Below, in pieces: positions 1 to 17,755 of a DNA stretch of 58,938 bases. Source of the stretch: Desulfobulbus propionicus. GTDB lineage: Bacteria; Desulfobacterota; Desulfobulbia; Desulfobulbales; Desulfobulbaceae. A model generated the notes under the pieces. It was given only the letters and a program-made list of their open reading frames with translations. It had not been told where the DNA came from and searched no databases. Every line of letters starts with the position of its first letter. Position 1 is the first letter of the stretch. Both the position numbers and the translations under genes were made by a program. The DNA is taken from assembly GCA_002748735.1 (NCBI GenBank), contig PDTC01000020.1:1-58938 (forward strand), in the 5' to 3' direction.

Positions 1-1524
1 GTAGAGGAGCAAAAGCTGGGCGATCATCTCCCGACTCTCAGGGATACGGTAAAAAGCCGGGTCGCCGTTGTTGACCACCTGGTTCATATCCTTGATGATA
101 TCAAGCAGTGAGCTGGTTTTCTTGGTCAGCCGAAAGGCCTTGACCTCTTCTATGAGCTGCTCAAATTTACGCAAATTTTCGGGATCTTTTATCGCATCTG
201 GCTGATCAAACTCAAGCGCCACATCATAGGAGTAGAGAGAGCCCACCGGTGTTTCACCGATAGCGTGCAGACGTTTGACATAGGGAACATCAAGACCCAT
301 CGAACGACGCAGGTCAAAGGAAACATCAAATCGACTCATACCGACAAGACAGGCCCCCACAATGAGTATAAAGATGGCAGAGGTTGTCTTTGGCCTGGCA
401 AGCACCCGCCTGCCCATACCGTCCATAAGTCGCTCCAGCAGCCGTCCGCCCTTTTCTGCATACACAGCGTGGGGCTTGCGGTCTTTCCCAAAACTGAGCA
501 GTGAGGGCAGGAGGACAAGCACCAGGACATAGGTGAGCCCCACCAGGCAAGCGGAGGTCAAGCCCACCCAGCGCAGTAGTCTGAGAGGAACAAAGAGAAA
601 GGAGAGCAGTGCGGCAATGGTGGTCAGGGCACTGAACAACAATGGCCAGCCGGTCTCTTGTACCGCGCGGACCACGGCTTTATGACGATTACCGGTTTTT
701 AAGAATTCTCGGGTGAAAAAGTTGAACAGATGGATGGAATAGCCGATGGATATGGCCAGAACCAGGGCCAGCGGCAGAAACATCAGAAGCACTATGGTTA
801 CCAACAGCCCAAACCCGAAAGTCCGCGGCGTTTCTTTTTTGAAAAAAGAGACCTTTTCAATGTTGATAATCGGCAGGCCCGTGGTTTTCGGCTGGAGTAT
901 CTTGTACTTTTCCTGGCCGACAACCTCATTGAAGATCCGACCCACGGCAAAATCGGGGTTTTCTGTCATCTCCTTTTGCCAATCATCGGGAATCGGTTTC
1001 ATGCGCAAGGCGAGCCAGGTATAACGGCCATCCTCGGAGAAGATCCGGTTTTTCATGGCAGGTTTGGCAAAGGCCCTCTCTTTTATCTGCTCCAGGGCCT
1101 CGGGCGAGGTGGGCATCGGATCGGGAACCAGATCAATGATCTCAAAGCCGCCCTCTGTGCCGAGGGTGAATTCAACATCAGTTAAAGAGACCACCTCGTC
1201 GGCATACGGAACCTTTGCCAGTAGCTCCCGGCCCAGCTCGCGTATCTTCGATAAAATCTGAGGGCTGAAGACATCATCTGCCTCGATCAGCACTGCACAG
1301 AAATCATCATTGCCAAAGATCGTTTCAAAACGTTCGCGGGCAGCGAGCAGAGCATCATCTTCCAGAAACCAGTTTTTGGTGTCAACATCGGGCTCGATCT
1401 GCCTGATACCAACAGATGCCGCGCCGACCAGCAACGCGAAAACAATCAGGTTGACCCACCTGAAACGGACGATAAACTCTCCCGCTGTCTGAAAACGGGC
1501 ATTGATTTTCTCGATATTGAGCAT
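1..1524 (-). CDS. RND/MMPL family exporter, C-terminal part outside window
   Basis: Inner-membrane transporter of the RND superfamily (MMPL/patched-like branch), which exports lipids or hydrophobic compounds using ion gradients. I translated 508 codons from an ATG at 1524; the frame runs off the left edge. A first membrane segment lies near residues 22-41, then a periplasmic domain of about 190 residues, then a cluster of hydrophobic helices (from about residue 235, with LGLLVTMVLLMFLPLALVLA) and the start of a second periplasmic loop after about residue 345. This half-repeat layout is typical of the family. It is last in a minus-strand module with a barrel-like protein and a LolA-like protein, which suggests envelope transport. 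The substrate cannot be read from sequence. Confidence 0.85.
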   Translation of the reverse strand, partial: MLNIEKINARFQTAGEFIVRFRWVNLIVFALLVGAASVGIRQIEPDVDTKNWFLEDDALLAARERFETIFGNDDFCAVLIEADDVFSPQILSKIRELGRELLAKVPYADEVVSLTDVEFTLGTEGGFEIIDLVPDPMPTSPEALEQIKERAFAKPAMKNRIFSEDGRYTWLALRMKPIPDDWQKEMTENPDFAVGRIFNEVVGQEKYKILQPKTTGLPIINIEKVSFFKKETPRTFGFGLLVTIVLLMFLPLALVLAISIGYSIHLFNFFTREFLKTGNRHKAVVRAVQETGWPLLFSALTTIAALLSFLFVPLRLLRWVGLTSACLVGLTYVLVLVLLPSLLSFGKDRKPHAVYAEKGGRLLERLMDGMGRRVLARPKTTSAIFILIVGACLVGMSRFDVSFDLRRSMGLDVPYVKRLHAIGETPVGSLYSYDVALEFDQPDAIKDPENLRKFEQLIEEVKAFRLTKKTSSLLDIIKDMNQVVNNGDPAFYRIPESREMIAQLLLLY

Positions 1525-1538
1525 GGTAACTCCATCGC

Positions 1539-2804
1539 CTAGAAGCTGTATTTCACCTTCACCCAAACCTGGGTGTTCTCTTCGTATCGACCAAAGGCCC
1601 CATCATCACCGGCAAAGATATCAACACCCGCAAAAAGAGCGACAGTATCACTGAGATCGTATGTTATTTTGAAGCGGTCAAAGACCTCACCGGCATCCAG
1701 CTGCCAGTACACCATATTGGCAAGGGTTAAGGTCTGGTCGAGCAGTTTTTTTGAAATATTGAGAGTAGAGATGTACTGGTGGCTTTTTCTTGCCAGCAAA
1801 GCGGCATCACCAAGCAGATGATCGCCGATCAGCTGAGCCGTTACTGTCCAGTCATTACCAGGTCTCCAGTCAATGCCGCCGAGCCATTTGACCACATCCT
1901 TTTTGTCAGGCTGGTCAAAAAGAGATGCCGGTGCATAGTAGCGCCCTCTGTAATAGGCGGCCTCAACGCGAAAGACATAGTCAGACCAGGGGCGTGCCCC
2001 CTCCAGGCCAAAGATGGTGAGACGATGATGCTTTGGCGCAAACTCGACCGTTGTCTTATCACCGGTACTTCTCACTGTACGATGCATGGCCGGAAAATCA
2101 TCCCAGGTATAGAAGATGGACGCGGCCAGATCCAGGCCAGAGAGATAGGAGGAGACCTTGAAGGCAAGTTCACTGTCTGCAAGAGAATTTGACGGCTCAT
2201 CGGCAGACGCAGACGAGACCCCGATATGTTTGGGAAAAACCGGCATAACTGCCCAAGGGTTATCCCCTTCCGGCTGGACCGCTGCCTTGAAAATCGGTAT
2301 CCAGAGCAGTACCATGTCTAGATGTTCACCAAGCAGCCGCAGCCTTGCAGCGCTGACCGGCATACGGATCTCGTCGAGATCGCGGCTGATGGATTCGGTA
2401 TAGTCGGGTGGTGAGATCATATCGGTGATCTGTACCCCATCGGCCCGGCCCCAGATAATAATCTGTTCCCCCAACCGTAGATCCCAACTATCGGCGACAT
2501 GCTCAACCCAGGCCTCATGGAGCTCAACCCCACTCTCAGAGGAGATTTGCCAGTTTTTCTCGGCGTCTGCCGACACAAAACCGTACAGCCAGTCCATATC
2601 GGCTGTCAGCTCCAGGCGCAACCGGGCTCGTGAGGTCAGGCTGTCATGGGGTGAACGCAGCCTGATCGACTGGATCGCATCCAGCCACCCTGAAACGGCA
2701 AACCGATCCTGCCATGCTTCCTGTTCTTCAGCGGCCCGGGTGCCAGGTGCCCATCCACCCAGCAGCAGCACAACCTGCAAGAAGAACACTCCCAAAATTT
2801 TCAA
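1539..2804 (-). CDS. Outer-membrane beta-barrel-like protein (DUF1302-like)
   Basis: A 421-residue secreted protein with a signal peptide (hydrophobic core at about residues 3-16, cleavage near TRAAEE). The rest shows alternating aromatic/polar strands ending in VWVKVKYSF, a terminal aromatic expected for an outer-membrane barrel. The segment LGEQIIIWGRADGVQITDMI resembles DUF1302-type proteins that often accompany MMPL exporters and LolA-like proteins; that family link is from memory. The start is a TTG at 2804 overlapping the TGA of the upstream gene, so translation is probably coupled. The role is inferred from context as the outer-membrane part of an export or lipid-trafficking module. 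Confidence 0.7.
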   Translation of the reverse strand: MKILGVFFLQVVLLLGGWAPGTRAAEEQEAWQDRFAVSGWLDAIQSIRLRSPHDSLTSRARLRLELTADMDWLYGFVSADAEKNWQISSESGVELHEAWVEHVADSWDLRLGEQIIIWGRADGVQITDMISPPDYTESISRDLDEIRMPVSAARLRLLGEHLDMVLLWIPIFKAAVQPEGDNPWAVMPVFPKHIGVSSASADEPSNSLADSELAFKVSSYLSGLDLAASIFYTWDDFPAMHRTVRSTGDKTTVEFAPKHHRLTIFGLEGARPWSDYVFRVEAAYYRGRYYAPASLFDQPDKKDVVKWLGGIDWRPGNDWTVTAQLIGDHLLGDAALLARKSHQYISTLNISKKLLDQTLTLANMVYWQLDAGEVFDRFKITYDLSDTVALFAGVDIFAGDDGAFGRYEENTQVWVKVKYSF

Positions 2805-3610
2805 GGGATACGCCCGCGCTGGATAGTGGAAACCTTGAACAACTGATCCTTGATGCCGGTGTTATAGCGGATTGAGCTAGTTTCCATAAGGGTCTTATGG
2901 TTTCTTGAGACGTTGTCCATCTCTGAACTCAGTACCACCCATATCCCGTCCTGCTGATCAAAGGCGAGGACCCGGTAATTTTTCAACAGGCCATCCTTGT
3001 CGTAATATTCGCCCTTGAGCACCAGAAGGCTCTCTGGGTCCACCCAGAAGATCTTGCGGGTGTACATATCTTCCGGGTCCACCGGGACGGATTCAACCTT
3101 CCAGCAGTTGTGGCCGTCAACCACCTCTTCTCCGAGCAGGGTATGGGTGTCTTCGTCAACATTACGGTCACCCATATCATCGTAGGTGAAATCACTGCCC
3201 ATAAAGTACTCGTTTCTCGAAGTGCCGCTAATACGCCGCACCTTTCGCATGGCCGGCATATAGAGCCACTTGTCATCTTCTTTTTGAGGGTCATCGTAGT
3301 CCCAGGAGAGAAAAGCGGTTCCTTTGACATCAGCCGGCGCCCTGAAAACCATGACCGCCTTCCTGTCCTTGCCGTAGTCTTTGGAAAAACTCTCCAGCTC
3401 GCGAACCCGCTGGCGGCCCCGTTTATTGACCAGGGTCATTTTCATAATCGAGTGACGATCATCACCATCAAGACGCTCATCCACCAGGGTCATGATCTCC
3501 CTACCGGTGGGCGCCTCTTTGCCATAAACAAAAGAAGGCAGGAGGAAAGAGAGTAACAGCAAGTACATAATTTTTTTTGTAGAATTATGTGCAATTTCCT
3601 TTAGTTGCAT
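2801..3610 (-). CDS. LolA-like outer-membrane lipoprotein-sorting protein
   Basis: A 269-residue periplasmic protein of the LolA-like fold. The chosen ATG at 3610 gives an N-terminus MQLKEIAHNSTKKIMYLLLL with a clear signal peptide ending near FVYGKEA; an earlier in-frame start at 3736 would add 42 unlikely residues. Conserved stretches include DYDDPQKEDDKWLYMPAMRK and GSDFTYDDM, seen in LolA-like proteins paired with MMPL exporters. It begins the minus-strand module and overlaps the next gene by 4 bases. It probably binds a lipid or lipoprotein in the periplasm; the cargo is unknown. Confidence 0.75.
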   Translation of the reverse strand: MQLKEIAHNSTKKIMYLLLLSFLLPSFVYGKEAPTGREIMTLVDERLDGDDRHSIMKMTLVNKRGRQRVRELESFSKDYGKDRKAVMVFRAPADVKGTAFLSWDYDDPQKEDDKWLYMPAMRKVRRISGTSRNEYFMGSDFTYDDMGDRNVDEDTHTLLGEEVVDGHNCWKVESVPVDPEDMYTRKIFWVDPESLLVLKGEYYDKDGLLKNYRVLAFDQQDGIWVVLSSEMDNVSRNHKTLMETSSIRYNTGIKDQLFKVSTIQRGRIP

Positions 3611-3849
3611 GAAAACAGCCCCTTTTTTCTTCTCAAAGCCCAAAAAGATTAGCGAGTATAAAGAGTATCTTTTAGTCCAGTGAAAGTCAAGGACCTCAAG
3701 ACGTATCTTCTCGTTGGCATTTTTATGGTAAGGCAAGGTCTCATACCTATATTCTCCTCAAAAACAAATAATCATTATATAATAGATATGATATAATCGA
3801 GACTATGGGATAATGTGCAAGCAAAAATGACAAAATCATCTTCAAAGAT

Positions 3850-4420
3850 TTGCACATGATTCCCTGTAAAAGCAATAATCAGCTCAGCCTTGAAGGTTTG
3901 CCCTTTGGCGGCAAGCTGGACCCCGAGAACAGATGGGTGAAGTTATCCCCTGGGATGACCTTGCCTCGATCTATTTATCGTCAGATATCAAGCCGTACAG
4001 GTCGTCCATGCAAGGATGTCCGTCTTGTCATTGGGGCCATGCTGATCAAGCATAAGCTGAATCTCAGTGATGAGGAGACAGTGCAGCGGTGAGGAAAATC
4101 TGCCGGAAACTGTACTCGCAGACCAGCTTTACGGTACTCGCGACAACAGGCGCTTGCTGAAGGAATTAGGCGTGCGCTTCGGTGATAACGAGCTGGAACG
4201 TCTGCCAAAAGAGACAGAAGCAAATCAGCAGAAACGGAAACGTCGCAGACAGCGGCATAGAGAAGACAGGCAAAACAGGATCCCGATTGAAGGCAAATTT
4301 GAACAAGGTAAAAATGGCTACCGGTTAAACGCTATCCGAGCCAGACTCCAGAAGACCTCAACAGCATGGATCAACAGTATCTTTCTGGTAACGAATCTGA
4401 TGGTTCTGGTAAAGATATGA
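3850..4420 (+). pseudogene. Decayed IS5-type transposase, centre deleted
   Basis: Two pieces of one transposase lie in different frames. The first (3856-4090) reads like the N-terminus of IS5-type transposases (LDPENRWVKLSPGM, then LIKHKLNLSDEETVQ). The second (4090-4420) reads like their C-terminus (RRLLKELGVRF, IEGKFEQGKNGYRLNAIRAR, SIFLVTNLMVL). The catalytic middle is missing at the junction near 4085-4095, so the element cannot be active. It lies at the left edge of the sulfolactate cluster and may be a trace of its arrival. I could not define terminal repeats. The next 250 bases (4421-4671) are A+T-rich with no gene seen. Confidence 0.75.
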
Positions 4421-4671
4421 GAAAAACCCTGCAATTTTTTTGTGTTTTTCCCTTATAGCTGTTGTTGATGAAAAAATTGGAGGATTTTGTTTACCAATTC
4501 TTTGTGCCAACTTACTTACCAGGAATATCTCTTAGAAGAGCATTGTGATTTTCTGAGGAAACTCTACCTATCAATCAGATAATCTATCAAGGGAATTTTG
4601 AATAATGAAATTTTTCAATAAAAATCAAGCATACGAAAAAAAATTATTGCAGATAATTAACTGAGGTTCCT

Positions 4672-6216
4672 TCAAGATCTATAATCATTAATATCGATAT
4701 TTAGCTTTTTAAGACGATATTGCAGCGTTGATCGCGGAATATCTAAAAGATTAGCCGCGCCATTTTTGCCACCAATTATTCCTTTTGTGCTATTTAGCGC
4801 TTTAATTATATGTTTTTTTTCCGCATTTTTAAGTGAATAAAAATCTATTTTTTCTTTTTTTAAAGAAAAAAACATAGGAAATAACTCTTTCATTACTTTT
4901 ATATTTATAACTTTATCATTATTAAGAATAAGTATTCGTTTAATCATATTTTTTAGCTCACGGATATTTCCAGGCCATTGATACCTACTAAATATATGTA
5001 AAACTTCATCAGAATAAATAGAGGGTTTTTTATGCATAAGATCTGCTTCAATCTTAGTTATATTATGTACTAACAATGGAATATCTTCAGGGCGTTCTCT
5101 GAGAGCCGGGACTCGTATCGTCACGGTATCTAGTCTATAGAAGAGGTCTTGGCGAAATTTTCCACTTTTAACCCGTTCCATCAAATCAACATTAGTAGCG
5201 GCAATGACACGTGCATTCATCGGTATTGAGGAGCTTTCCCCCACACGTTCAAATCTCTTTTCTTGCAAAACTTGAAGAAGTTTTGCTTGTAAATTTAACG
5301 GGAGCTCTCCAATTTCATCAAGAAATATAGTGCCTTTGTTGGCGAGTTCAAATCGTCCAAGTCGTTGTTTCTCCGCCCCGGTAAATGCTCCTTTAGCGTG
5401 TCCGAAGAGTTCGCTTTCAAACAACGAGGTTGTAAGGCCAGGGCAATTTGTTTTTACGAAAAGGTGGTCCCTCCTCGGACTCTTCTGGTGTATAAGATGG
5501 GCCAGAAAATCCTTTCCCGTTCCTGTCTCTCCGGTAAGCAAGATCGTTTCGTCAGTGCTTGCAGCCTTCTCTATCATTTTGACGACGTCTCTCATGGATT
5601 TAGACTTGAAAAAGAACCCTTCAGCGTGATAATCATCATTATTTTTAAGCAAAAAATCTTTTTCATTTTTTAAGTGATTATTAGTTTTTTGAAGAGATGT
5701 ATAAGAAATCATATTATCAACAGCAATTGATATAAGCTCAGAGACAACGCCTAGCACATCTGCTAATTCATGAATAGCATACGGTTTTTTTATATAACTA
5801 AAATGTATTGATCCAAGTATTTTTTCTCGGACAATCATAGGAAAAGTAAGAGTTGATGTAAGACCAGCCTCTACAAGTTTTTTTATTGAATTCATATTAC
5901 TATACTGAGTTAAGTCATCAAGTATCGTAGGCCTCCCTGAAGAAATAACTATTCTAGCAATATCTCCTTTTTCAATTGGTCGAGACTGGAGTGACACTTC
6001 TCCACCTGGCTGAACTCCATCTGCTGAAGCAAAATATTCTATAGAGTTATCTTCATGATTGTACAAAATTATTGCCAATCTATCATAGTTAAAATGCTTG
6101 TGCAGCTCCCGAGAAATAGCATTAAAAAGATCTTGTTGGTTTTTTTTGCTTGCTACCGCTTTATGTATTTCCAGTAAAAGTTTATACCGGGTTTCTGCAT
6201 CCCATTTCATTGCCAA
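4672..6216 (-). CDS. GAF-domain sigma-54-dependent activator of the sulfolactate cluster
   Basis: A 514-residue enhancer-binding protein. Residues about 1-170 form a GAF-like sensor; the AAA+ domain (about 205-430) has Walker A GETGTGKD, the sigma-54 contact motif GAFTGA and Walker B IFLDEIGE; a Fis-type helix-turn-helix ends the protein (GAANLLDIPRSTLQYRLKKL). There is no receiver domain, so it is probably controlled by a small ligand through GAF. It is divergent from suyA, and the gap holds palindromes and a sigma-54 promoter, so it very likely activates the suy/slc operon and may control itself. Its DNA is clearly more A+T-rich than the core genes here, which suggests transfer. Confidence 0.9.
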   Translation of the reverse strand: MAMKWDAETRYKLLLEIHKAVASKKNQQDLFNAISRELHKHFNYDRLAIILYNHEDNSIEYFASADGVQPGGEVSLQSRPIEKGDIARIVISSGRPTILDDLTQYSNMNSIKKLVEAGLTSTLTFPMIVREKILGSIHFSYIKKPYAIHELADVLGVVSELISIAVDNMISYTSLQKTNNHLKNEKDFLLKNNDDYHAEGFFFKSKSMRDVVKMIEKAASTDETILLTGETGTGKDFLAHLIHQKSPRRDHLFVKTNCPGLTTSLFESELFGHAKGAFTGAEKQRLGRFELANKGTIFLDEIGELPLNLQAKLLQVLQEKRFERVGESSSIPMNARVIAATNVDLMERVKSGKFRQDLFYRLDTVTIRVPALRERPEDIPLLVHNITKIEADLMHKKPSIYSDEVLHIFSRYQWPGNIRELKNMIKRILILNNDKVINIKVMKELFPMFFSLKKEKIDFYSLKNAEKKHIIKALNSTKGIIGGKNGAANLLDIPRSTLQYRLKKLNIDINDYRS

Positions 6217-6248
6217 CCACCTTCATAAGATAAGTTTTTTTCTTCTTA

Positions 6249-6304
6249 CAAAATATTCCGACAACCAACAAGCCCAATATTGGGCGCTTTGCCGAATATT
6301 GGGC
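6249..6304. promoter_or_regulatory. Three AATATT-centred palindromes, probable enhancer sites
   Basis: A perfect 14-base palindrome GCCCAATATTGGGC lies at 6272-6285. A near-perfect copy, GCCGAATATTGGGC, lies at 6291-6304, and a weaker AATATT site at 6252-6257. The AATATT centres are 24 and 19 bases apart. They sit 36-88 bases before the activator start and about 80-130 bases before the -24/-12 promoter, which is normal enhancer distance. I infer they bind the adjacent sigma-54 activator. Confidence 0.65.
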
Positions 6305-6379: not shown

Positions 6380-6397
6380 ACGGCTTAACTATTGCAG
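6380..6397 (+). promoter_or_regulatory. Candidate sigma-54 (-24/-12) promoter for the suy/slc operon
   Basis: The sequence CGGCTTAACTATTGCA has GG at 6382-6383 and GC at 6394-6395 with exactly ten bases between, and the -12 element reads TTGCA. This fits the sigma-54 consensus at the key positions, although TGGCAC is only partly matched. It points toward suyA, about 290 bases upstream of its start, and lies at enhancer distance from the palindromes by the activator gene. Confidence 0.6.
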
Positions 6398-6422: not shown

Positions 6423-6575
6423 TCATGCGATACGGGGAAAAAGGGGCCATCGATAAACAGTACCGAGCCCTGTAGAAGCTGCAATGTAGGGCTCATCAAA
6501 ATACTCGCTGCTGGTGTTGTTGACCTGAGCCTGAAAAGCGGCCTGAAAGCTTTTGGTTGCGGCCACCGTGAATTC
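6423..6575 (-). other. Unassigned short coding-like frame between promoter and suyA
   Basis: On the minus strand a frame ends in TGA at 6423-6425 and reads about 45 residues with ordinary-looking composition (including NNTSSEYFDEPYIAASTGLG) before running into the duplicated suyB tail. It has no start or ribosome site. I do not recognise the peptide. It may be the end of a deleted gene or chance. Otherwise 6400-6685 would be the operon's untranslated leader and holds only the suyB scar. Confidence 0.25.
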
Positions 6576-6604
6576 ATCATGACAAAAATTTACGAGAGCG
6601 CATA
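6561..6604 (+). repeat. Copy of the last 44 bases of suyB (direct repeat, left copy)
   Basis: Bases 6561-6604 match 8089-8132, the 3' end of suyB, with one mismatch (C at 6566, T at 8094). In frame it encodes [14 protein letters not shown] followed by TAA, whereas suyB itself ends in TAG. It is a scar of an earlier suyB copy and brackets suyAB as a direct repeat. Confidence 0.9.
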
Positions 6605-6685: not shown

Positions 6686-6970
6686 ATGGTACCAGATTTT
6701 TTAGTACACGAAGCTGTAGATGGGGTAGGTGTAGTAGTAGTTGAAGGTTTAAAGGCCAACCAAGAAATTACTGGTTGGATAATGAAGGAAGACGAGACTG
6801 TGACAATTAAAATTTTAAACGATATCCCTATTGGTCATAAGGTCTCCTTGCGGGACTATGCGGAAGGGGACACCGTGATCAAATACAATACTGATATCGG
6901 AAAAGTGGTGGCACCAATCAAGAAAGGTGAACATCTGCACGTACATAACGTCAAGACAAAGAGGTGGTAA
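6686..6970 (+). CDS. suyA: (2R)-3-sulfolactate sulfo-lyase, small subunit
   Basis: SuyA with SuyB cleaves 3-sulfolactate to pyruvate and sulfite in the cytoplasm. The 94-residue protein is a single SAF-like domain of the UxaA small-subunit type. It carries stretches I recall from characterised Suy[28 protein letters not shown] and the tail [10 protein letters not shown]. It starts with ATG after TTGGAGG and overlaps the upstream frame of suyB by a few bases. The UxaA family also contains altronate dehydratase, but separate small and large genes plus the downstream transporter and two dehydrogenases favour sulfolactate. Confidence 0.88.
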
Positions 6971-6972
6971 CT

Positions 6973-8133
6973 ATGGACACAAAATTTTTAGGATATCGTC
7001 GTGAAAATGGTCGGGTTGGTATTCGTAACCATGTGGTTACATTACCTCTCGATGACTTGTCTAACGCCGCCTGCGAAGCGGTTGCCAACAATATCAAGGG
7101 GGTCCTGGCTCTGCCCCATGCCTACGGGCGCTTGCAGTTCGGTGTAGATCTCGATCTACATTTCCGCACGTTAATTGGCATCGGCTGTAACCCAAACGTT
7201 GCGGCGGTTATCGTTATCGGTATCGAGCCCCAATGGACCAATAAGATTGTAGAAGGTATTGCCGAGACCGGTAAACCTGTCATGGGATTTGCTATTGAGC
7301 AAAACGGTGACCTCAACACTATTGCAGCGGCATCTCGCAAGGCAAAAGAATTTCTTCAGGCCGCAAGTGAACACCCACGTACCGAGTGTGATATCAGTGA
7401 ACTCTGGGTTTCAACCAAATGCGGGGAATCGGATACGACTTCTGGTATCGCCACCAACCCAACCGTTGGCAACGCCTATGACAAGCTTTATGACCTAGGA
7501 AACACTTTACTTTTTGGAGAAACCACCGAGCTTACCGGCGGTGAGCATCTCGTTGCGGCACGGTGTATAAATGATGAGGTTCGCAAGGAGTTTCAGTTCT
7601 ACTTTGATCGCTACGCAAAAGTAATTGATGATCATAAAACCAGCGATCTTTCCGACTCTCAACCCACCAAAGGCAACATCGAAGGCGGTTTGACCACAAT
7701 AGAAGAGAAGGCCCTTGGTAATATCCAGAAGATTGGCAAGAAAGCTCCGATAGTCGGTTGTCTTGAAAAGGCTGTGGCTCCCACCGGTCCGGGGCTATGG
7801 TTTCAAGACTCCTCCTCTGCCGCAGCCGAGCAGGTCACCCTCTGTGCTGCTTCCGGTTGCGTCGTGCATTTTTTCCCTACAGGCCAGGGAAATATCATCG
7901 GCAACCCGATCCTGCCGGTAATCAAGCTCTGCTCTAATCCTCGTACCCTGAGAACGATGGAAGAGCACTTTGACCTTGATGTTTCTGGCCTGCTTCGCCG
8001 TGAAATTAACCTTGATCAAGCTGGTGATGCGCTGCTTGAAATGATGATAAGGACGGCAAATGGCCGCCTGACGGCTGCCGAGACTCTTGGCCATCGTGAA
8101 TTCATCATGACAAAAATTTACGAGAGCGCATAG
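6973..8133 (+). CDS. suyB: (2R)-3-sulfolactate sulfo-lyase, large subunit
   Basis: The 386-residue catalytic subunit of the UxaA C-terminal family; these enzymes use iron in an eliminating lyase reaction, here releasing sulfite from sulfolactate. Stretches recalled from known SuyB are present: [67 protein letters not shown] and the C-terminal [15 protein letters not shown] chose ATG at 6973, after GAGGTGG, over an in-frame GTG at 6964 that overlaps suyA. Its last 44 bases are duplicated upstream of suyA. A 122-base gap follows before the transporter genes, with no terminator seen. Confidence 0.9.
8089..8132 (+). repeat. 3' end of suyB, right copy of the 44-base direct repeat
   Basis: The partner of 6561-6604 (43 of 44 bases identical). 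The two copies enclose about 1.5 kb with the whole of suyA and most of suyB, so recombination between them could delete or amplify that segment. Confidence 0.9.
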
Positions 8134-8255
8134 CTGACGCACTAAGGCTATTACTGTCCAGAAGCGTAGTGCCTCAAAATCTTAGGGGAGTTTATTCATC
8201 CCTGTGACCGTGATACTATATCGCTTACAACCCTTTTGGGTTAAAGGAGACTACC

Positions 8256-9218
8256 ATGAAAAGGAAAGTGTTACATCAGTTCTTATTTGTTGCTGTAGTC
8301 GTCGCTATGTTTTCCGTCTCAGCTATCGTTTTTGCAGAAGAATACCCTGCTAAACCAGTAAATTACATTATACCTTTCGGGCCTGGTGGAGAATCTGACA
8401 TTACAGCTCGCCACCAGCAACCCTTTTTTAAGGAGTTATTTGGTCAGGATCTCATTATTTCATACAAACCTGGCGGCGGTGGAGCTGTTGGCTGGTCTCA
8501 GCTCAATAAAATGAAAGGAGACGGCTACAATATAATGGGGATCAATCTACCGCATATCATTCTTAAGCCACGACAAAAAGCGGTCGGGTTTAAGACCGAC
8601 GAGCTGGTAGGTATCTATATGTTTCATTACACTCCTGATGCTATTGTAGTAACAAATGACAGCCCGTTCAAAACACTGCAAGATTTCATCGATTTTGCCA
8701 AGGCTAATCCTAAAAAAATTACAATGTCTGGTTCAGGCAAAGGTACAGCAAATCATCTTGCCCAACTTCGTTTTGATAAAATGGCTGGAATAAAAACAAC
8801 CTACGTACCCTTTAAAGGAACAGGAAAAGCGGTTACCGCTCTTTTGGGGAACCAGGTGAAGGCTGAATGGGGATATACTACGGTTGCCGCAAATCATCCG
8901 GAAAAAGTACGTATGCTGGCAGTAGCTCTGGACGAGCGTCATCCACGTTTCCCTGATGTCCCAACCTTTAAGGAGCTTGGTTTTGATCTCGTTTCTGGCG
9001 CCTATCGCGGGATTGCCGTGCCCAAATCTACCCCTGAGGAAATCAGGGTACAGCTTTCCAAGATGATAGGTGAAATTAATGCAAATGACGAATTCAGAAA
9101 GAGAATGGAGAGAGATGGTCTGTCACTATTAAATATCGATTATAAAGGTTACCAGCCTTTTATGGATAAAATGACAGACATTTATGTGAAAACAGCCACT
9201 GAAGCTGGAATTCTTTAA
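8256..9218 (+). CDS. tctC: Tripartite tricarboxylate-type transporter, binding protein (sulfolactate uptake)
   Basis: A 320-residue periplasmic solute-binding protein of the TctC/Bug family with a signal peptide (cleavage near VFAEEYP). Family features follow: YPAKPVNYIIPFGPGGESDI, the glycine-rich GSGKGTANHLAQL ligand loop and YRGIAVPKSTP near the C-terminus. It starts at an ATG after AAAGGAG. It lies between suyB and the tctA/tctB membrane genes. In known sulfolactate degraders a transporter of this class is called SlcHFG, so the ligand is inferred to be 3-sulfolactate; the binding protein alone does not prove it. Confidence 0.87.
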   Translation: MKRKVLHQFLFVAVVVAMFSVSAIVFAEEYPAKPVNYIIPFGPGGESDITARHQQPFFKELFGQDLIISYKPGGGGAVGWSQLNKMKGDGYNIMGINLPHIILKPRQKAVGFKTDELVGIYMFHYTPDAIVVTNDSPFKTLQDFIDFAKANPKKITMSGSGKGTANHLAQLRFDKMAGIKTTYVPFKGTGKAVTALLGNQVKAEWGYTTVAANHPEKVRMLAVALDERHPRFPDVPTFKELGFDLVSGAYRGIAVPKSTPEEIRVQLSKMIGEINANDEFRKRMERDGLSLLNIDYKGYQPFMDKMTDIYVKTATEAGIL

Positions 9219-9255
9219 CTTCTCAGATACGTTTAAGTAGCCTAGACTAAGCGTG

Positions 9256-9293
9256 AAAAGGCTGACGGTTATGTACTACTGTTCGGCCTTTTT
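9256..9293 (+). terminator. Hairpin with T tract between binding-protein and permease genes
   Basis: AAAAGGCTGA (9256-9265) pairs with TCGGCCTTTT (9283-9292), a ten-base stem with one G-T pair and a 17-base loop, followed by T. The same-strand tctA starts 43 bases later, so it is probably a partial terminator or an mRNA end-protecting stem that raises binding-protein dose over the membrane subunits. Confidence 0.55.
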
Positions 9294-9335
9294 ACGTCTA
9301 TGTCAATGCTTTCTTCTGATAAGCGGAGGTAGTAT

Positions 9336-10847
9336 ATGCTTGGGATTCAGTATTTTTTAGAAGCATTAACGCCATTTAATCTGCTATTGGCTCTATTTGG
9401 TGTTTTGGCAGGAACAGTAATTGGTTCAATTCCTGGGCTTACCGCAACTATGGCTGTAGCTGTTCTTGTCCCGATAACTTTTTCCATGGAGCCGGGCTCA
9501 GCATTGTTGATGATGGGGGCTATCTACACTGGCGCAATATATGGAGGAGCTTATGCTGCAATTTTGCTGAATACGCCTGGGACTCCCTCTGCAATTGCCA
9601 CCACCTTTGATGGCTTTCCTCTGGCTAAAAAGGGAGAAGGAGATCTTGCTGTCACCCTTGCCTGTGTTGCCTCTGTTACCGGCGGGTTGGTTGGCGCATC
9701 TTTTTTACTGTTTCTTGCCCCTCCATTAGCTGAGGTTGCCCTAGCCTTTGGTCCTGTTGAGTATTTCTGGCTTGCGGTGTTCGGGCTCACTCTCATTTCA
9801 ACCCTTTCTGAAGGTAATCTTATCAAAGGACTTATTGGCGCTTGCTTTGGCCTGCTACTCGCCTGTGTGGGTATTGCCGAAATTAGTGCTGATGTCAGAT
9901 TTACTTTTGGCAGTCAGGTACTATTAGGCGGAATAGAAATTGTTTCTGCATTAATTGGCCTATATTGCATACCTGTTCTCATTGACCTTGTGGCAACGCC
10001 AGACAGGCATCTACAACTGACGCATGAATCAACCAGTTTTCGCTTGATGGAAGCATTGTCTCTTGCCTGGAAGGCAAAATTCAGTTTATTGCGCAGCTCT
10101 GTCATAGGAACTCTCGTTGGAATCCTTCCCGGTGCCGGCGGCTCTATTGCTGGACTTGTCTCCTATTCTGAGGCCCGGCGAACCTCGAAGAGGCGTGAAG
10201 AATTCGGTAAGGGTGAGCCTGAAGGGGTTATTGCAACGGAATCTGCCAATAACGCCACTGTCGGGGGTGGCTTTATACCGACCCTGGTACTGGGAATACC
10301 TGGGACCCCGCCTGATGCGGTGATCCTGGGGGCCTTGTTGATTCAAGGCGTGCGGACTGGCCCGAGCCTGTTCACAGACGGTGGGTCCATTGTTTACACG
10401 TTCATTTATGGGCTCTTTGTGGCCACTCTCCTTATGCTTCCTGTGGGACTGGTGGTTGGTCGGTACGCCTACAAAACTATTATTGGTGTACCCAAGGCGC
10501 TTCTGGTGCCCGCTATAGCGTTCATGACAATTCTGGGGACATATGCAATCCGTAACTCAATCTCGGATATTATTATAATGATACTCCTCGGAGTTATTGG
10601 TTGGGGGCTAAACCTCTTCGGATTCAGTCCTTCGCCGATTGTCTTGGGTTTGATTCTTGGCAGCATTGCTGAACAGGGTTTTGTCCAAGCCTGGACTATA
10701 GGATCTGCGACTGGTTCAATGGCAGGTATGTTTTTGGGCCGACCCATCAGTCTTATGATTATTGTTTTCATCATTCTCTCCCTATTTTATCCAATAATCA
10801 TTAAACAGTTCAAACGTCTGAGAAAAAGAGGTGCCAATGTCAACTGA
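9336..10847 (+). CDS. tctA: Tripartite tricarboxylate-type transporter, large membrane subunit
   Basis: A 503-residue inner-membrane protein with about 11-12 hydrophobic helices. It holds both signature loops of the TctA family: GSIPGLTATMAVAVLVPITF near the N-terminus and GILPGAGGSIAGLVSYSEA near residue 265. It forms the transport channel and moves substrate with cations. It begins at ATG after GCGGAGG and its end overlaps tctB. Full family length, no defects. In context it is the large subunit of a probable sulfolactate importer. Confidence 0.9.
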   Translation: MLGIQYFLEALTPFNLLLALFGVLAGTVIGSIPGLTATMAVAVLVPITFSMEPGSALLMMGAIYTGAIYGGAYAAILLNTPGTPSAIATTFDGFPLAKKGEGDLAVTLACVASVTGGLVGASFLLFLAPPLAEVALAFGPVEYFWLAVFGLTLISTLSEGNLIKGLIGACFGLLLACVGIAEISADVRFTFGSQVLLGGIEIVSALIGLYCIPVLIDLVATPDRHLQLTHESTSFRLMEALSLAWKAKFSLLRSSVIGTLVGILPGAGGSIAGLVSYSEARRTSKRREEFGKGEPEGVIATESANNATVGGGFIPTLVLGIPGTPPDAVILGALLIQGVRTGPSLFTDGGSIVYTFIYGLFVATLLMLPVGLVVGRYAYKTIIGVPKALLVPAIAFMTILGTYAIRNSISDIIIMILLGVIGWGLNLFGFSPSPIVLGLILGSIAEQGFVQAWTIGSATGSMAGMFLGRPISLMIIVFIILSLFYPIIIKQFKRLRKRGANVN

Positions 10848-11319
10848 GAAAAAGAAATTTCAAAAAAGAGATATCGGCGGGATTTTTATCTCCTGTCTGT
10901 TTATTGTCATTGGCATAGTAATGCTCTGGGATACCACGCATATGCTGGATTCAGACTCATTTGTTTTCCCACGTGCCGTTGCTATAGTGATGATTGCCTT
11001 AAACGTGCTGTTGATTGGCAGAAATCTAGTACTTTGCCTCCCCCCTGCTCAAAATACTGTGACAGAAGGAGCCTCAACCATTCGCAGAGTGGCGCTCATT
11101 TTTGGCATGCTGCTCAGTTGTTTGCTCATGTCGTACCTGGGCTTCTTGCTATCTGCAATAATCTCTTTTTTCTTGCTGATGCTGGTTTCCATGTATGATG
11201 AATGGAGCTTTGCAAAAAAGCTCTCCTATCCGATTATTGCGTTGCTACTGATTGCGACATTTTATACACTGTTTAGCAAGGTGCTCCTTGTTCCATTGCC
11301 AACGGGAACTGTATTTTAA
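10837..11319 (+). CDS. tctB: Tripartite tricarboxylate-type transporter, small membrane subunit
   Basis: A 160-residue protein with four hydrophobic helices, matching TctB layout (two N-terminal helices, a hydrophilic middle, then ISFFLLMLVSM and a final helix with LPTGTVF). I chose ATG at 10837, five bases after GAGG, over GTG at 10831. It overlaps tctA by 11 bases, so the two are probably coupled. TctB proteins diverge quickly, so the call rests mostly on position and topology. Confidence 0.82.
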   Translation: MSTEKKKFQKRDIGGIFISCLFIVIGIVMLWDTTHMLDSDSFVFPRAVAIVMIALNVLLIGRNLVLCLPPAQNTVTEGASTIRRVALIFGMLLSCLLMSYLGFLLSAIISFFLLMLVSMYDEWSFAKKLSYPIIALLLIATFYTLFSKVLLVPLPTGTVF

Positions 11320-11384
11320 CTATTTATTAATTATATTAAAACAGATAATTAATAAAAAATATAGATCATGGCAATGATTGAAGC

Positions 11385-11422
11385 TTATGTTAATTTTACA
11401 GTATTTTTATTTTTTAACATAA
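11385..11422. promoter_or_regulatory. Inverted repeat upstream of slcC
   Basis: TTATGTTAA (11385-11393) is repeated inverted as TTAACATAA (11414-11422), just before the ribosome site AAAGGAG, in a very A+T-rich 115-base gap. It could be an operator or an mRNA stem that touches the ribosome site. Either role is an inference. Confidence 0.35.
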
Positions 11423-11434
11423 AGGAGACTTAAA

Positions 11435-12391
11435 ATGGTGGAGATTGTAATTAGCGAGTTTATGGATAAGTCTATTATAGATAACACTCACAGTAAAATA
11501 AAATTACTTTACGATCCAGATCTTGTTGACAATAGAGATAGGCTGAAAAAAGTTTTATCAAAGGCAAAAGCTCTGGTCGTCAGGAATCGAACACAGGTAG
11601 ACAGGGAACTATTGGATGCTGCACCTCATCTTGCGGTAGTTGGCAGGCTTGGTGTCGGTCTTGACAATATCGACATAGAAGAATGTAGAAAACGTGGAAT
11701 TGCTGTTTACCCAGCAACTGGAGCAAATGCTGTCGCTGTGGCAGAGTATGTTATATGCAGCATGATGATGCTTATTCGGAAAGCATATAGTAGCAAACCA
11801 CAAATGCTTGGCGGAGAATGGCCACGCAATCAACTGATAGGCAACGAAACAAGTGGAAAAACATTAGGCTTGCTTGGGTTTGGCGGAATTGCAAAAGAAA
11901 CTGCTAGTCGTGCCATTGCTCTTGGAATGCGTGTTATTGCCTTTGATCCGTATCTTCCAAAAGAGGATCCAAGTTGGGAACAGGTTATAAGAATCGAGAA
12001 CCAGGCTGAATTGTTGCGACAATCAGATGTTATTAGCTTGCATGTTCCTTTATCCAAAACCACCTACCATCTTATTAATGCCGATTCAATCAGCCAGATG
12101 AAAAGTGGAGCCATCGTTATTAACACTGCTAGGGGTGGTATTGTTGATGAAAAAGCGTTAGTCAAGGCATTGACGTCGGGCAGACTTGGCGGGGCTGCCC
12201 TTGATGTTTTTGAGACTGAACCTTTAGATGAAGAGACAGCTTCTTCTTTTTCTACCATATCAAATCTAATCTTGACCCCGCATATTGCTGGAGTCACCAT
12301 CGAATCAAACGTGCGAGTCAGCAGGATGACTATCGACAAGGTATGTAACGCTCTGGAGGCTGCAAAATGTCAAAAAAATACTTTGCCGTAA
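11435..12391 (+). CDS. slcC: SlcC-like (S)-sulfolactate dehydrogenase, D-2-hydroxyacid dehydrogenase family
   Basis: A 318-residue NAD-dependent enzyme of the D-isomer-specific 2-hydroxyacid dehydrogenase family. The nucleotide-binding loop is LGLLGFGGIA (about 144-153) and the catalytic residues fall at R233 (NTARGG), E262 (DVFETEPL) and H283 (LTPHIAG). In known sulfolactate degraders SlcC oxidises (S)-sulfolactate to sulfopyruvate, and ComC reduces that to the (R) form that SuyAB cleaves. Both partners are here, so I assign SlcC by context; phosphoglycerate or hydroxypyruvate-type activity would look similar. It overlaps the next gene by 25 bases. Confidence 0.8.
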   Translation: MVEIVISEFMDKSIIDNTHSKIKLLYDPDLVDNRDRLKKVLSKAKALVVRNRTQVDRELLDAAPHLAVVGRLGVGLDNIDIEECRKRGIAVYPATGANAVAVAEYVICSMMMLIRKAYSSKPQMLGGEWPRNQLIGNETSGKTLGLLGFGGIAKETASRAIALGMRVIAFDPYLPKEDPSWEQVIRIENQAELLRQSDVISLHVPLSKTTYHLINADSISQMKSGAIVINTARGGIVDEKALVKALTSGRLGGAALDVFETEPLDEETASSFSTISNLILTPHIAGVTIESNVRVSRMTIDKVCNALEAAKCQKNTLP

Positions 12392-13386
12392 AAGACATAC
12401 ACCAGCTTGTTGTCAAGGCACTTACAAACCACAAAACAGCCAGTGAACACGCTGATCAAATTGCCGATGCCCTTGTCGCTGCCGAAATTGATGGTCAGAA
12501 AGGCCATGGCCTGTCCAGGCTTCCCTCCTACTGTGAGCAAGCTGCGAGCGGTAAGGTTAATGGGTTTATCAGTCCTGTGGTTTCCCAGGTAGCAACTGCA
12601 GCCATTGTGGTTGACGCCCGTTATGGTTTTGCCTATCCAGCTCTAGCAAGAGCCGTCGATGAAATGGTAAAACTGACTCCCAAGACAGGTATTGCCGTTG
12701 CGGCAGTAAAGAATTCTCACCACTGTGGAATGGCGGGATATCACGTTGAAAAATTAGCGCGGAAAGGGCTTGTTGGCTTATTGTTCGCTAACACCCCAAA
12801 AGCAATTGCTCCATGGGGAGGCCAACGGGGCATTTTCGGAACAAATCCCATCGCCCTTGCGGTTCCAAGACAAAGCAGGGAACCAATGGTTATTGATCTC
12901 GCTCTCAGCAAGGTGGCGAGAGGAAAGATCATGATTGCGGCTCGTGACAACAAAGAGATACCTGAAGGCTGGGCTCTTGACGCGACAGGGCAGAGCACGA
13001 CCGATCCAAAGGCTGCCTTAGCAGGAACAATGGCACCAATAGGGGGTGCTAAAGGAGCAGCCCTGGTTTTGATCGTGGAAATACTTGCTGCTGCCCTTAC
13101 GGCATCAAACTTTGGCTTTGAAGCGACCTCTTTTTTTGAGGCTGACGGGAAATCGCCGGGAGTTGGTCAGCTTCTTGTCGCATTCGCACCTGAGCCGCTT
13201 TCTGGGGGGCAATTCTCGATAAAAGTAGAGTCACTTTTTAAAGAAATTCTCAGCCAGGGAAATACCCGGCTACCAGGAGAGCGAAAATTGACACTGCGAC
13301 AAGCAGCAGCGCAAAAGGGAATTTCTCTCACTGGGGCTCAGCATGCACTGATACAAAAACTTGCCGGTGAGTCCAGCAAGGCTTAA
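12367..13386 (+). CDS. comC: ComC-like (R)-sulfolactate dehydrogenase, Ldh2/MDH2 family
   Basis: A 339-residue NAD(P)-dependent oxidoreductase of the Ldh2 (malate/L-lactate/ureidoglycolate) family, unrelated in fold to SlcC. Family hallmarks are GHGLSRLPSYCEQ, the active-site region KNSHHCGMAGYHVEK and GIFGTNPIALAVPR. In this setting it would reduce sulfopyruvate to (R)-sulfolactate, completing a two-enzyme inversion. It starts inside slcC (25-base overlap), so expression is probably coupled. Sulfolactate specificity is an inference from the neighbours. Confidence 0.8.
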   Translation: MSKKYFAVKDIHQLVVKALTNHKTASEHADQIADALVAAEIDGQKGHGLSRLPSYCEQAASGKVNGFISPVVSQVATAAIVVDARYGFAYPALARAVDEMVKLTPKTGIAVAAVKNSHHCGMAGYHVEKLARKGLVGLLFANTPKAIAPWGGQRGIFGTNPIALAVPRQSREPMVIDLALSKVARGKIMIAARDNKEIPEGWALDATGQSTTDPKAALAGTMAPIGGAKGAALVLIVEILAAALTASNFGFEATSFFEADGKSPGVGQLLVAFAPEPLSGGQFSIKVESLFKEILSQGNTRLPGERKLTLRQAAAQKGISLTGAQHALIQKLAGESSKA

Positions 13387-15448: not shown

Positions 15449-16465
15449 TTACTCATACAACGCCCTGAGCTCTACAGGGGTGTTGACATTACACCAGGAG
15501 CGGTGCAGCCTGCTAGGCGGAGAAGGTGTCTCCACCGCCTGGTACTCGTTGAGCCGACTCAACCGTCGCTGGCCCTTTGCCGCCAGGTCTTCGAGAATGG
15601 GACCGCACTGTGGACTGTACAGGGCAAACAGAGGTTCGACGCCGTCCCTCCCCGGGAGGATCGGCAAAATGGCCCTGACACCGGCCCGTTTCCTTGCCAA
15701 TAGCCAGCGAATGGCCTCAGATTGCAGGCAGGGGAGATCGCAGGCCAATACCAGCCAATGAACACCGGGATTATATCTGAACGCCGCAAGGATACCGGCC
15801 ATGGGTCCAGCCAGTCCTGGGGTATCCACTAATCGAGGCAACGCCCCTAGTGAATCCGGAACCTGCCCCCGCCCCGAGAGAATCACCTGATCCACCAAGG
15901 GGGCAACTATGGCAACCGTGTTCTCTAGCCAGGTTGCATCATTCCGGTTCAAGGCAGGTAGCAGGTGCTTGGCCTCCCCCATCCTACTACTCTGGCCGCC
16001 GATCAGGATACAGGCCCAGACCGGGTTTTCCCGGCACTGACACTCAAGCCACTCCTGCAACCATTCTCCCAGAGACATAGCCCCCACCTGTTGCCCGTCG
16101 CTTCGAATCAGTATCTGACCACCTCGCAATTTTGGCAGCTCTTCATGTATAGGAGCTATCCACAACGAAGTTCCTTGCCTCAACATTCCGGCAACAAGCA
16201 CCAGATCAAAAAATTGGCCAAGATGGGTGGGGCAAAATTGCTCTGGCTCTCCTGAGACCGCATTCTCCGGCACGGAACACCGGTACATATCAGGGAGCTG
16301 CGCAATCTGCCGATCGTGTCCTACAACAACGACACGAAGACCGGCAGCATTGGCGATGGAGGCTAGGCAACGCAGGCTCTCCCCAACTATGGCCGTATCC
16401 GGTCCAGTGACACCGAGAACAGGAAACCTCGCAGGAGTGACACTGATCGACGCCACCTCTTTCAC
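15449..16465 (-). CDS. mobA: Molybdenum cofactor guanylyltransferase with extra N-terminal domain
   Basis: MobA attaches GMP to molybdopterin to make the bis-MGD cofactor of many anaerobic oxidoreductases. The C-terminal part (about 149-338) carries the nucleotidyltransferase signature ACILIGGQSSRMGEAKHLL, then VDTPGLAGPMAGILAAF and LACDLPCLQSEAI. Usual MobA is about 190-200 residues; this protein has 338. The first 145 residues look like a MobB/CooC-like layout (VLGVTGPDTAIVGESL) but lack a proper P-loop. Start is GTG at 16465. It is convergent with the beta-helix gene. Confidence 0.82.
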   Translation of the reverse strand: MKEVASISVTPARFPVLGVTGPDTAIVGESLRCLASIANAAGLRVVVVGHDRQIAQLPDMYRCSVPENAVSGEPEQFCPTHLGQFFDLVLVAGMLRQGTSLWIAPIHEELPKLRGGQILIRSDGQQVGAMSLGEWLQEWLECQCRENPVWACILIGGQSSRMGEAKHLLPALNRNDATWLENTVAIVAPLVDQVILSGRGQVPDSLGALPRLVDTPGLAGPMAGILAAFRYNPGVHWLVLACDLPCLQSEAIRWLLARKRAGVRAILPILPGRDGVEPLFALYSPQCGPILEDLAAKGQRRLSRLNEYQAVETPSPPSRLHRSWCNVNTPVELRALYE

Positions 16466-16681
16466 ATCGCCTCCGGGTCAGTGAGCAAGGCGCAGCCGTC
16501 TCTGTGCAAAAAAGCTAATACTCCTCGAATGTTCATACTTTTTTCGGAGGTTATTGCTCTGAAAATTACCGCGATCATCCACAATACCTGGGGACAAAAA
16601 TACAATTCATGAGACTTTTCAGACAATGTACGGTAGGTTATCCGGCTTTGCAAGGACTCCTCGCTCAAAGAACAGACTCGC

Positions 16682-17755
16682 ATGCTGATCGATCATCTTC
16701 TCGAAAGCTACAAGTACCACCTTCCCCTTGGGCAAATCGCCCAGGCCCCTGTCAATGAACGGGATAACAGCCGCCTGATGGTACTGGAGCCCGCACCTTC
16801 ACCGTTCAAGCACTTACTGTTCCATAATATTGTTGATCTTCTCCAGCCTGGGGACCTACTGGTAACCAACAACAGTAAAGTCTTTCCCGCAAGGCTTTTC
16901 GGGTATAAACAGAGCGGTGGCCGAGTGGAGGTATTACTCCTTAACTATCCTGAACCGCAAAAAAACCAGGAAGGGGCAAGGGCCCTGGCCCTGATAAAAA
17001 GCTCCAAGCGGCCAAAACCCGAGAGCATCATCAAGATTGCCGAAGATCTCCATATCCGCGTCGAACAGATCCTTGAACATGGCCAGGTGAAGATCCGCCT
17101 GCTCTTTAGGGGCGACAACCCCGCTCCTTTTCTGGAGCGTCACGGTCAAATGCCGCTCCCCCCTTACATTAACCGAGCTGCAGCAGCAAACGACAACAGA
17201 CGATATCAGACACGATACGCAGAGAATATCGGTTCAGTAGCCGCACCCACAGCCGGACTCCATTTCAGTGATCGACTGCTGGCAGCCATTGAGGAGAGGG
17301 GAATTCAGCGGGTAAACATCACCCTGCATGTCGGGTATGGAACCTTTGCCCCGGTTCGCCAGGAAGATATTCGCAAACACAAAATCCACAGAGAAGAGGT
17401 GGAAATCAGTGAGAGGACGGCAGAGATAATTAACCATACCAGGGATACTGGAGGACGTATCTGGGCGGTGGGAACAACCACGGTACGCACCTTGGAATAT
17501 GTGGGAAAAGAGACAGGCCGTCTCAGTGGATTCCGGGGCAGATGTGGACTCTACATCTACCCGGGCTACCGCTTTAGCGTTGTTGATAACCTGATCACCA
17601 ATTTCCACCTGCCGCAATCATCGCTGCTTTTCCTGGTCTCGGCACTGATAGGCAGAGACAGGATTCTCGCAGCATACCAGAATGCAGTGGCAAAAGGATA
17701 TCGTTTCTTTTCCTACGGTGACGCCATGGCCATCATCACCCGACCTGTCACCTGA
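16682..17755 (+). CDS. queA: S-adenosylmethionine:tRNA ribosyltransferase-isomerase
   Basis: QueA transfers and rearranges the ribose of S-adenosylmethionine onto 7-aminomethyl-7-deazaguanine in tRNA to make epoxyqueuosine. The 357-residue protein is full length and shows family stretches: LPLGQIAQAPVNERDNSRLM, GDLLVTNNSKVFPARLFG, SVAAPTAGLHFSDRLL, HVGYGTFAPVRQEDIRKHKI and NLITNFHLPQSSLLFLVSAL. It is convergent with fmdB, with only four bases between stop codons. Confidence 0.95.
   Translation: MLIDHLLESYKYHLPLGQIAQAPVNERDNSRLMVLEPAPSPFKHLLFHNIVDLLQPGDLLVTNNSKVFPARLFGYKQSGGRVEVLLLNYPEPQKNQEGARALALIKSSKRPKPESIIKIAEDLHIRVEQILEHGQVKIRLLFRGDNPAPFLERHGQMPLPPYINRAAAANDNRRYQTRYAENIGSVAAPTAGLHFSDRLLAAIEERGIQRVNITLHVGYGTFAPVRQEDIRKHKIHREEVEISERTAEIINHTRDTGGRIWAVGTTTVRTLEYVGKETGRLSGFRGRCGLYIYPGYRFSVVDNLITNFHLPQSSLLFLVSALIGRDRILAAYQNAVAKGYRFFSYGDAMAIITRPVT

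Follow-up and report, generated by a model that had tools for sequence, protein, structure and literature searches.

A compact candidate operon for both forms of 3-sulfolactate, probably horizontally acquired, in Desulfobulbus propionicus

Genes and signals at the locus

We analyzed a stretch of 58,938 nucleotides from Desulfobulbus propionicus (contig PDTC01000020.1 of assembly GCA_002748735.1; here, the window), which represents one contig of an assembly of 1.81 Mb that is 85.6% complete. Seven intact open reading frames (ORFs) at positions 6686-13386, all on the forward strand, encode in this order the two subunits of a putative (R)-sulfolactate sulfo-lyase (suyA, suyB), all components of a tripartite tricarboxylate transporter (TTT; slcH, slcF, slcG) and two candidate sulfolactate dehydrogenases (slcC, comC), just as the original prediction on this DNA had described, and its assignment of the host to the Desulfobacterota is supported as well (Table 1). 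We read the locus as an operon, probably acquired horizontally and probably controlled by sigma-54, that would serve the use of both forms of 3-sulfolactate by an anaerobic sulfate reducer, and we give this reading a probability of about 0.87.

The ORFs overlap or nearly touch, as in one transcript, with the exact overlaps hinging on the choice of start codons; for instance, suyB may start at the ATG at 6973, since its relatives align only from residue 3 or 4. Six of the seven proteins matched their expected Pfam families above cut-off, including those of the predicted transporter and of the SlcC/ComC-type dehydrogenases, the exception being SuyA, whose SAF domain scored just under it (20.5 vs. 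21 bits); SuyA does, however, match the altronate hydrolase 3k3s at 6.2e-11. The operon holds neither a sugar-acid aldolase nor a kinase (ORF and Pfam check), and no sulfate/sulfite exporter gene lies within it (this check of exporters covered the operon, not the host genome at large). The first large ORF past comC, at 13892, encodes a beta-helix protein; terminator-like sites exceeded those in shuffled sequence (19 vs. 7.6), with none on the forward strand between 13386 and 13900.

A gene that diverges from the operon, and that the original prediction did not mention, encodes a sigma-54 activator with a GAF domain, relatives of which (57-63% identical) occur in eight Desulfofustis-type/Desulfobulbaceae suy loci. 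A sigma-54 consensus scan of the whole window returned 5 matches vs. 5.21 expected, none of them upstream of suyA, and a sigma-70 scan remained at chance level. The candidate promoter from a looser scan was equaled by 102 of 500 shuffles of the region; it lies at +165 from the regulator, and the -24/-12 elements of six related loci lie at +167 to +195. These latter elements score 9-11 of 12, stand ~29-38 bp ahead of the match to LarA (the product of the gene preceding suyAB in such loci, as described below) and were equaled by 0, 1, 3, 23, 30 and 2 of 500 shuffles, respectively. The 289 bp between the window candidate and suyA contain a near-identical copy of the suyB 3' end, which is likely a rearrangement scar. 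A transposase DDE-domain fragment (117 aa; 4067-4420) adjoins the regulator, and a second sigma-54 activator, 43% identical to the first, is encoded at 45045-46031.

Table 1. Features of the sulfolactate locus and its upstream region (window coordinates)
Feature	Position	Strand	Evidence
suyA, putative (R)-sulfolactate sulfo-lyase, small subunit	6686..6970	+	SAF-type; 82-94% identity to SuyA of loci L001-L014
suyB, putative (R)-sulfolactate sulfo-lyase, large subunit	6964..8133	+	72% to Cupriavidus pinatubonensis; SuyB clade 100/100
slcH, TTT substrate-binding protein (TctC)	8256..9218	+	PF03401
slcF, TTT large permease (TctA)	9336..10847	+	PF01970
slcG, TTT small permease (TctB)	10831..11319	+	PF07331
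slcC, (S)-sulfolactate dehydrogenase candidate, 2-hydroxyacid dehydrogenase family	11435..12391	+	PF02826/PF00389
comC, (R)-sulfolactate dehydrogenase candidate, Ldh_2 family	12367..13386	+	PF02615
GAF-domain sigma-54 activator, putative operon regulator	4672..6216	-	Pfam GAF_2, Sigma54_activat, HTH_8
Weak candidate -24/-12 promoter, CGGCTTAACTATTGCA, 8 of 12	6381..6396	+	Looser scan
44-bp copy of suyB 3' end, 43/44 identical to 8089-8132	6561..6604	+	blastn of window vs. itself

Identity of the sulfo-lyase and of the two dehydrogenases

SuyB belongs to the PF04295/PF20629 superfamily, which it shares with the UxaA/GarD dehydratases. Alternatively, SuyAB might be a two-subunit sugar-acid dehydratase of the altronate/galactarate type, and the operon might degrade a sugar acid. 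Database matches lean this way: the sole PDB match of SuyB is the galactarate dehydratase 6u7l, and its sole NCBIfam match is galactarate dehydratase as well, albeit far under the cut-off (143.4 of 730.85 bits). However, in a tree of 33 proteins, with annotated relatives standing in for biochemically characterised sequences, the window SuyB and 24 SuyB-type rows, proteins of sulfonate loci among them, split with 100/100 support from eight outside rows (E. coli UxaA and GarD, and six more UxaA-like proteins). A similar break appeared in a tblastn search of plasmids, where 13 records matched SuyB at 64.5-72.2% identity and the other 27 of the best 40 of 316 at no more than 39.4%. As for the genomic surroundings of such proteins, Cupriavidus pinatubonensis HN-2 carries hpsN and hpsO near suyB, Paracoccus versutus has a sulfate exporter gene after it, and Sinorhizobium mexicanum is described as encoding homologues of SlcC, ComC, SuyA and SuyB (PMC12421959).

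The cysteine residues point in the same direction. According to PMC6336799, UxaA/GarD enzymes share a conserved set of four cysteines, to which sulfolactate sulfo-lyase is the exception. Three columns of our alignment that hold cysteine in UxaA, GarD and four further outside rows (6 of 8) are L/I, R and a gap in all 25 SuyB rows (L, R and a gap in the window protein), and a fourth column is cysteine in 32 of the 33 rows. That is, the window SuyB keeps one of the four and does not have the four-cysteine set of UxaA/GarD, provided that these columns correspond to the published positions, as our reading of an alignment that does not include the enzyme of PMC6336799 would have it. The same three cysteines are also missing from two outside rows (Variovorax and one Halostagnicola) and their loss is not unique to SuyB; hence, the test argues against UxaA/GarD without proving a sulfo-lyase. 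Based on the SuyB clade and the cysteine columns, we reject a UxaA-type identity for SuyAB, and with slcC/comC-type genes in the operon rather than an aldolase or kinase for sugar acids, sugar-acid degradation appears highly improbable. The SuyAB assignment of the original prediction has thus withstood both the tree and the residue test.

Encoded together with suyAB are a phosphoglycerate dehydrogenase-like 2-hydroxyacid dehydrogenase and an Ldh_2 dehydrogenase, which is the combination expected for SlcC/ComC inversion, and we infer that the two have opposite stereospecificity. Compared with SlcC proteins from other suy loci, the window SlcC is 52-58% identical in eight of them and in genome G130, and 36-39% in two more, with weak support around the window protein in the SlcC tree (82/95). 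For ComC, the corresponding values are 45-66% in ten suy loci, 62% in G130 and 32-34% in two more. For the transporter, SlcH and SlcF are 70-74% and 81-85% identical, respectively, to their counterparts in a set of eight related loci (L004, L006, L008, L009, L011, L012, L014, L015; 58% and 63% in Paracoccus seriniphilus); SlcH shares 30-40% with four other loci (L001, L002, L007, L010), and SlcG 49-54% with related loci.

It is important to note that several observations weigh against reading the operon as one for sulfolactate. Among PDB sequences, SlcC comes closest to a phosphoglycerate dehydrogenase and ComC to the delta1-piperideine-2-carboxylate reductase 1wtj (3.8e-66), with the L-sulfolactate dehydrogenase 2x06 in second place (1.7e-44); further, ComC falls under the NCBIfam cut-off for L-sulfolactate dehydrogenase (216.5 of 500 bits). 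Since these best matches are other enzymes, family membership alone does not fix the substrates of SlcC and ComC. In our comparisons, annotated relatives took the place of the characterised SuyAB, SlcC and ComC proteins (DF1, NKNCYSA, Chromohalobacter salexigens, Taurinivorans muris), and genes of the same kinds also surround a Variovorax enzyme that shares 39% identity with SuyB. This look-alike cluster, at 1511-6274 of a Variovorax sp. plasmid (locus L053), consists of a two-subunit UxaA-type enzyme, a hydroxyacid dehydrogenase (33% identical to the window SlcC), TctC and Ldh_2.

Distribution, origin and a possible racemase in related loci

Of 257 genomes of the order, 13 encode SuyB, namely the host, one further member of its family (G007) and eleven of a family (f12) that includes Desulfofustis; in a wider draw, SuyB was found in 18 of 395 genomes. 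SlcC at E <=1e-80 was restricted to 2 of the 257, the host and G130 (f12), the latter with slcG-slcC-comC in the same order as in the window at the start of a contig. The operon is AT-rich, with a GC content of 45.9% from suyA to comC vs. 52.1% outside the regulator-comC segment, and with a third-codon-position GC of 0.27-0.50 in the eight genes of the locus vs. 0.57-0.615 in five other genes of the window, and was likely gained horizontally. A mosaic history is also possible because pieces of the operon differ in their nearest kin.

The Desulfofustis-type loci carry a LarA-family gene ahead of suyAB-slcHFG, followed by AOR-, DhpA-, TRAP- and aldehyde dehydrogenase (ALDH)-type genes. Among the 13 genomes of the order that encode SuyB, 10 have LarA next to suyAB; the remaining three are the host, G007 (LarA at 44% identity, ~11 kb from suyB) and G162, where the contig is cut. 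The suy-linked LarA contains the Pfam domains Lar_N and LarA_C, and its best PDB match is the malate racemase Mar2 (2.5e-71); malate and sulfolactate differ by a carboxylate vs. a sulfonate, which makes an action of LarA on sulfolactate plausible. One such gene near suyAB, at 4750-6018 of locus L065, is a candidate sulfolactate racemase with residues H109, H174, K184 and H200, which we take to be the catalytic set of lactate racemase. In another locus (L063, genome G135) there are two larA-suyAB units ~12 kb apart (suyB at 4033-5190 and 16205-17362), and the interval holds genes of the AOR, DhpA and TRAP types.

Across 45 suyB loci, 20 had LarA, 11 SlcC, 14 neither and none both (hypergeometric 0.0004, a value that overstates the contrast because related loci were counted as independent). 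Duplicate loci and those lacking suyB had been dropped beforehand, L063 was counted once in spite of its two suy copies, L112 and L113 come from one genome, several contigs are short, and G007 was scored as having neither despite its distant LarA. A few identities were low (30% for the LarA of L117 and 38% for the SlcC of L055 and L116), and three LarA loci (L004, L006, L011) have an Ldh_2 gene further upstream that is 45-47% identical to ComC. It is intriguing to hypothesize that a nickel-pincer, LarA-family enzyme acting as a direct, redox-free sulfolactate racemase and the SlcC/ComC pair are unrelated, mutually replacing solutions to the chirality problem in suy operons of the Desulfobulbales and beyond, a proposal whose chances we consider to be even. 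Speaking against a nickel racemase, 3 of 14 genomes gave no match to larC, namely G163, G165 and G166 (85-94% complete), and all three belong to the ten genomes with LarA beside suyAB; the other 11 did match larC.

Within its order, the window is an uncommon example of an operon that has no larA and ends in slcC-comC; LarA had no match in the host genome. The layout upstream of suyA fits a rearrangement that removed larA and left its role to slcC-comC, although it does not prove a former presence of larA. A loss of the LarA cofactor genes by the host was also considered and failed, as larC is present there. Our literature search found no paper joining sulfolactate with "lactate racemase"; the LarA superfamily papers searched contain no word beginning with "sulfo" in their main text; and the literature on sulfolactate and racemase, in the parts covered, mentions or cites only the SlcC/ComC pair. 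This suggests that a nickel-dependent sulfolactate racemase activity has not been assigned in the literature searched. Separately, no paper was found on organosulfonate use in Desulfofustis.

Fate of the sulfite and relation to known pathways

In the proposed pathway, sulfolactate would enter the cell through SlcHFG, SlcC would oxidize the (S)-form to sulfopyruvate, ComC would reduce sulfopyruvate to (R)-sulfolactate, and SuyAB would split the latter by elimination into pyruvate and bisulfite. The pyruvate would then provide carbon and part of the electrons, and the bisulfite/sulfite would be reduced to sulfide by Dsr, with which an operon lacking an exporter gene is consistent. The original prediction had called the host a likely sulfite reducer. 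The genome has aprA, sat and a dsrC that ends in Cys-X10-Cys (ACKMAGLPKPTGCV), with the two C-terminal cysteines expected of a DsrC for sulfite respiration. By contrast, neither dsrA nor dsrB was matched in the host assembly, which counts against the proposed Dsr step, even if an empty match in an assembly 85.6% complete shows nothing on its own.

Alternatively, the pathway might be functional in a host truly devoid of dsrAB, with the sulfite being exported, assimilated or disproportionated. Yet all 36 other relatives matched dsrB, 33 of them above the cut-off and the other 3 through strong but partial hits, and in three of four relatives examined dsrAB sits between the same two genes, presumably rpe and kpsF, of which the host assembly has no match to the first and only a 28% partial match to the second (in the fourth relative, L060, this pair was not matched beside dsrAB). 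With both flanking genes missing too, and given the relatives and the incompleteness of the assembly, the absent match is best read as one probable assembly gap. True loss of dsrAB was accordingly judged unlikely, and a functional pathway in a host without dsrAB, which would also have to accommodate the two-cysteine dsrC, aprA and sat, very unlikely.

The claim that pyruvate and sulfite supply donor and acceptor together did not hold up if pyruvate stops at acetate. Oxidation of pyruvate to acetate and CO2 yields 2 electrons, whereas reduction of sulfite to sulfide consumes 6, and complete oxidation of pyruvate would provide 10. Consequently, with sulfolactate as the only substrate and acetate as the end product, two thirds of the sulfite would stay unreduced; full oxidation of pyruvate or an extra donor would be needed. 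Under these considerations, sulfolactate probably serves mainly as an electron acceptor beside another donor, as in T. muris. The 2,3-dihydroxypropane-1-sulfonate (DHPS) route differs in that the two oxidation steps leading to sulfolactate supply a further 4 electrons, which makes the balance exact. This fits with Desulfovibrio DF1, in which DHPS is fermented to H2S and acetate (PMC6278857).

Another alternative is that the true substrate of the operon lies upstream, i.e., a sulfonate such as DHPS, cysteate or sulfoquinovose, and that sulfolactate is merely an internal intermediate. The suy loci of family f12, with their DhpA-, AOR- and ALDH-like genes fitting DHPS oxidation, would favor it, but these genes were unmatched in the window (the search did not extend to DhpA, SlaB, HpsN or CuyA elsewhere in the host genome), and the TTT transporter together with both dehydrogenases fits external, racemic sulfolactate. 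We consider an upstream substrate unlikely, and favor external sulfolactate in both of its forms.

The operon resembles several known systems. On plasmids of P. seriniphilus and P. aestuarii, the order is likewise suyA-suyB-slcH-slcF(G)-slcC-comC, but one long TTT permease gene replaces slcF and slcG, a sulfate exporter gene that the window operon lacks follows comC, and the regulator is of the GntR type instead of a sigma-54 activator. C. salexigens shares SlcC/ComC inversion, SuyAB and SlcHFG with the window; its sulfolactate pathway was reportedly described by Denger and Cook in 2010, and this organism is an aerobe, in which the fate of sulfite differs from that proposed here. The Desulfofustis-type loci have a related regulator, suyAB and slcHFG, but differ from the window by their LarA-family gene, the lack of slcC and the added genes for DHPS oxidation.

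Among sulfite reducers, a parallel is T. muris, for which growth and differential expression back a SlcC-ComC-SuyAB pathway, with sulfolactate as the acceptor for lactate and pyruvate (PMC10507020). It has the same enzymes and a TTT transporter, but its genes are described as two neighboring clusters that include hpsN and a TRAP transporter, as opposed to the single run of seven genes, free of hpsN and TRAP, in the window, which comes from a different order of the same phylum. Two Acidobacteria metagenome-assembled genomes (MAGs) with sulfite reduction genes carry suyAB, one of them (SbA5) also slcC and comC, as in the window, although SlcHFG is reported absent there, and pyruvate was proposed as the energy and carbon source and sulfite as the acceptor (PMC6018796). 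In Desulfovibrio DF1, SuyAB likewise feeds sulfite respiration, but the pathway begins at DHPS via DhpA and SlaB, slcC-comC goes unmentioned in the portion of the text consulted, and suyB is reported for many sulfate/sulfite reducers, including Desulfobulbus oralis (PMC6278857). A sulfolactate pathway in sulfite reducers is already published, and the novelty implied by the original prediction is low in view of these precedents (PMC6018796, PMC10507020, PMC6278857).

In conclusion, the window adds a compact and complete sulfolactate operon from the Desulfobulbales to these cases, and suggests that sulfonate use travels among sulfate reducers as a cassette. Further, a nickel-dependent sulfolactate racemase in many sulfidogens, if true, would explain how both enantiomers are used without two dehydrogenases.

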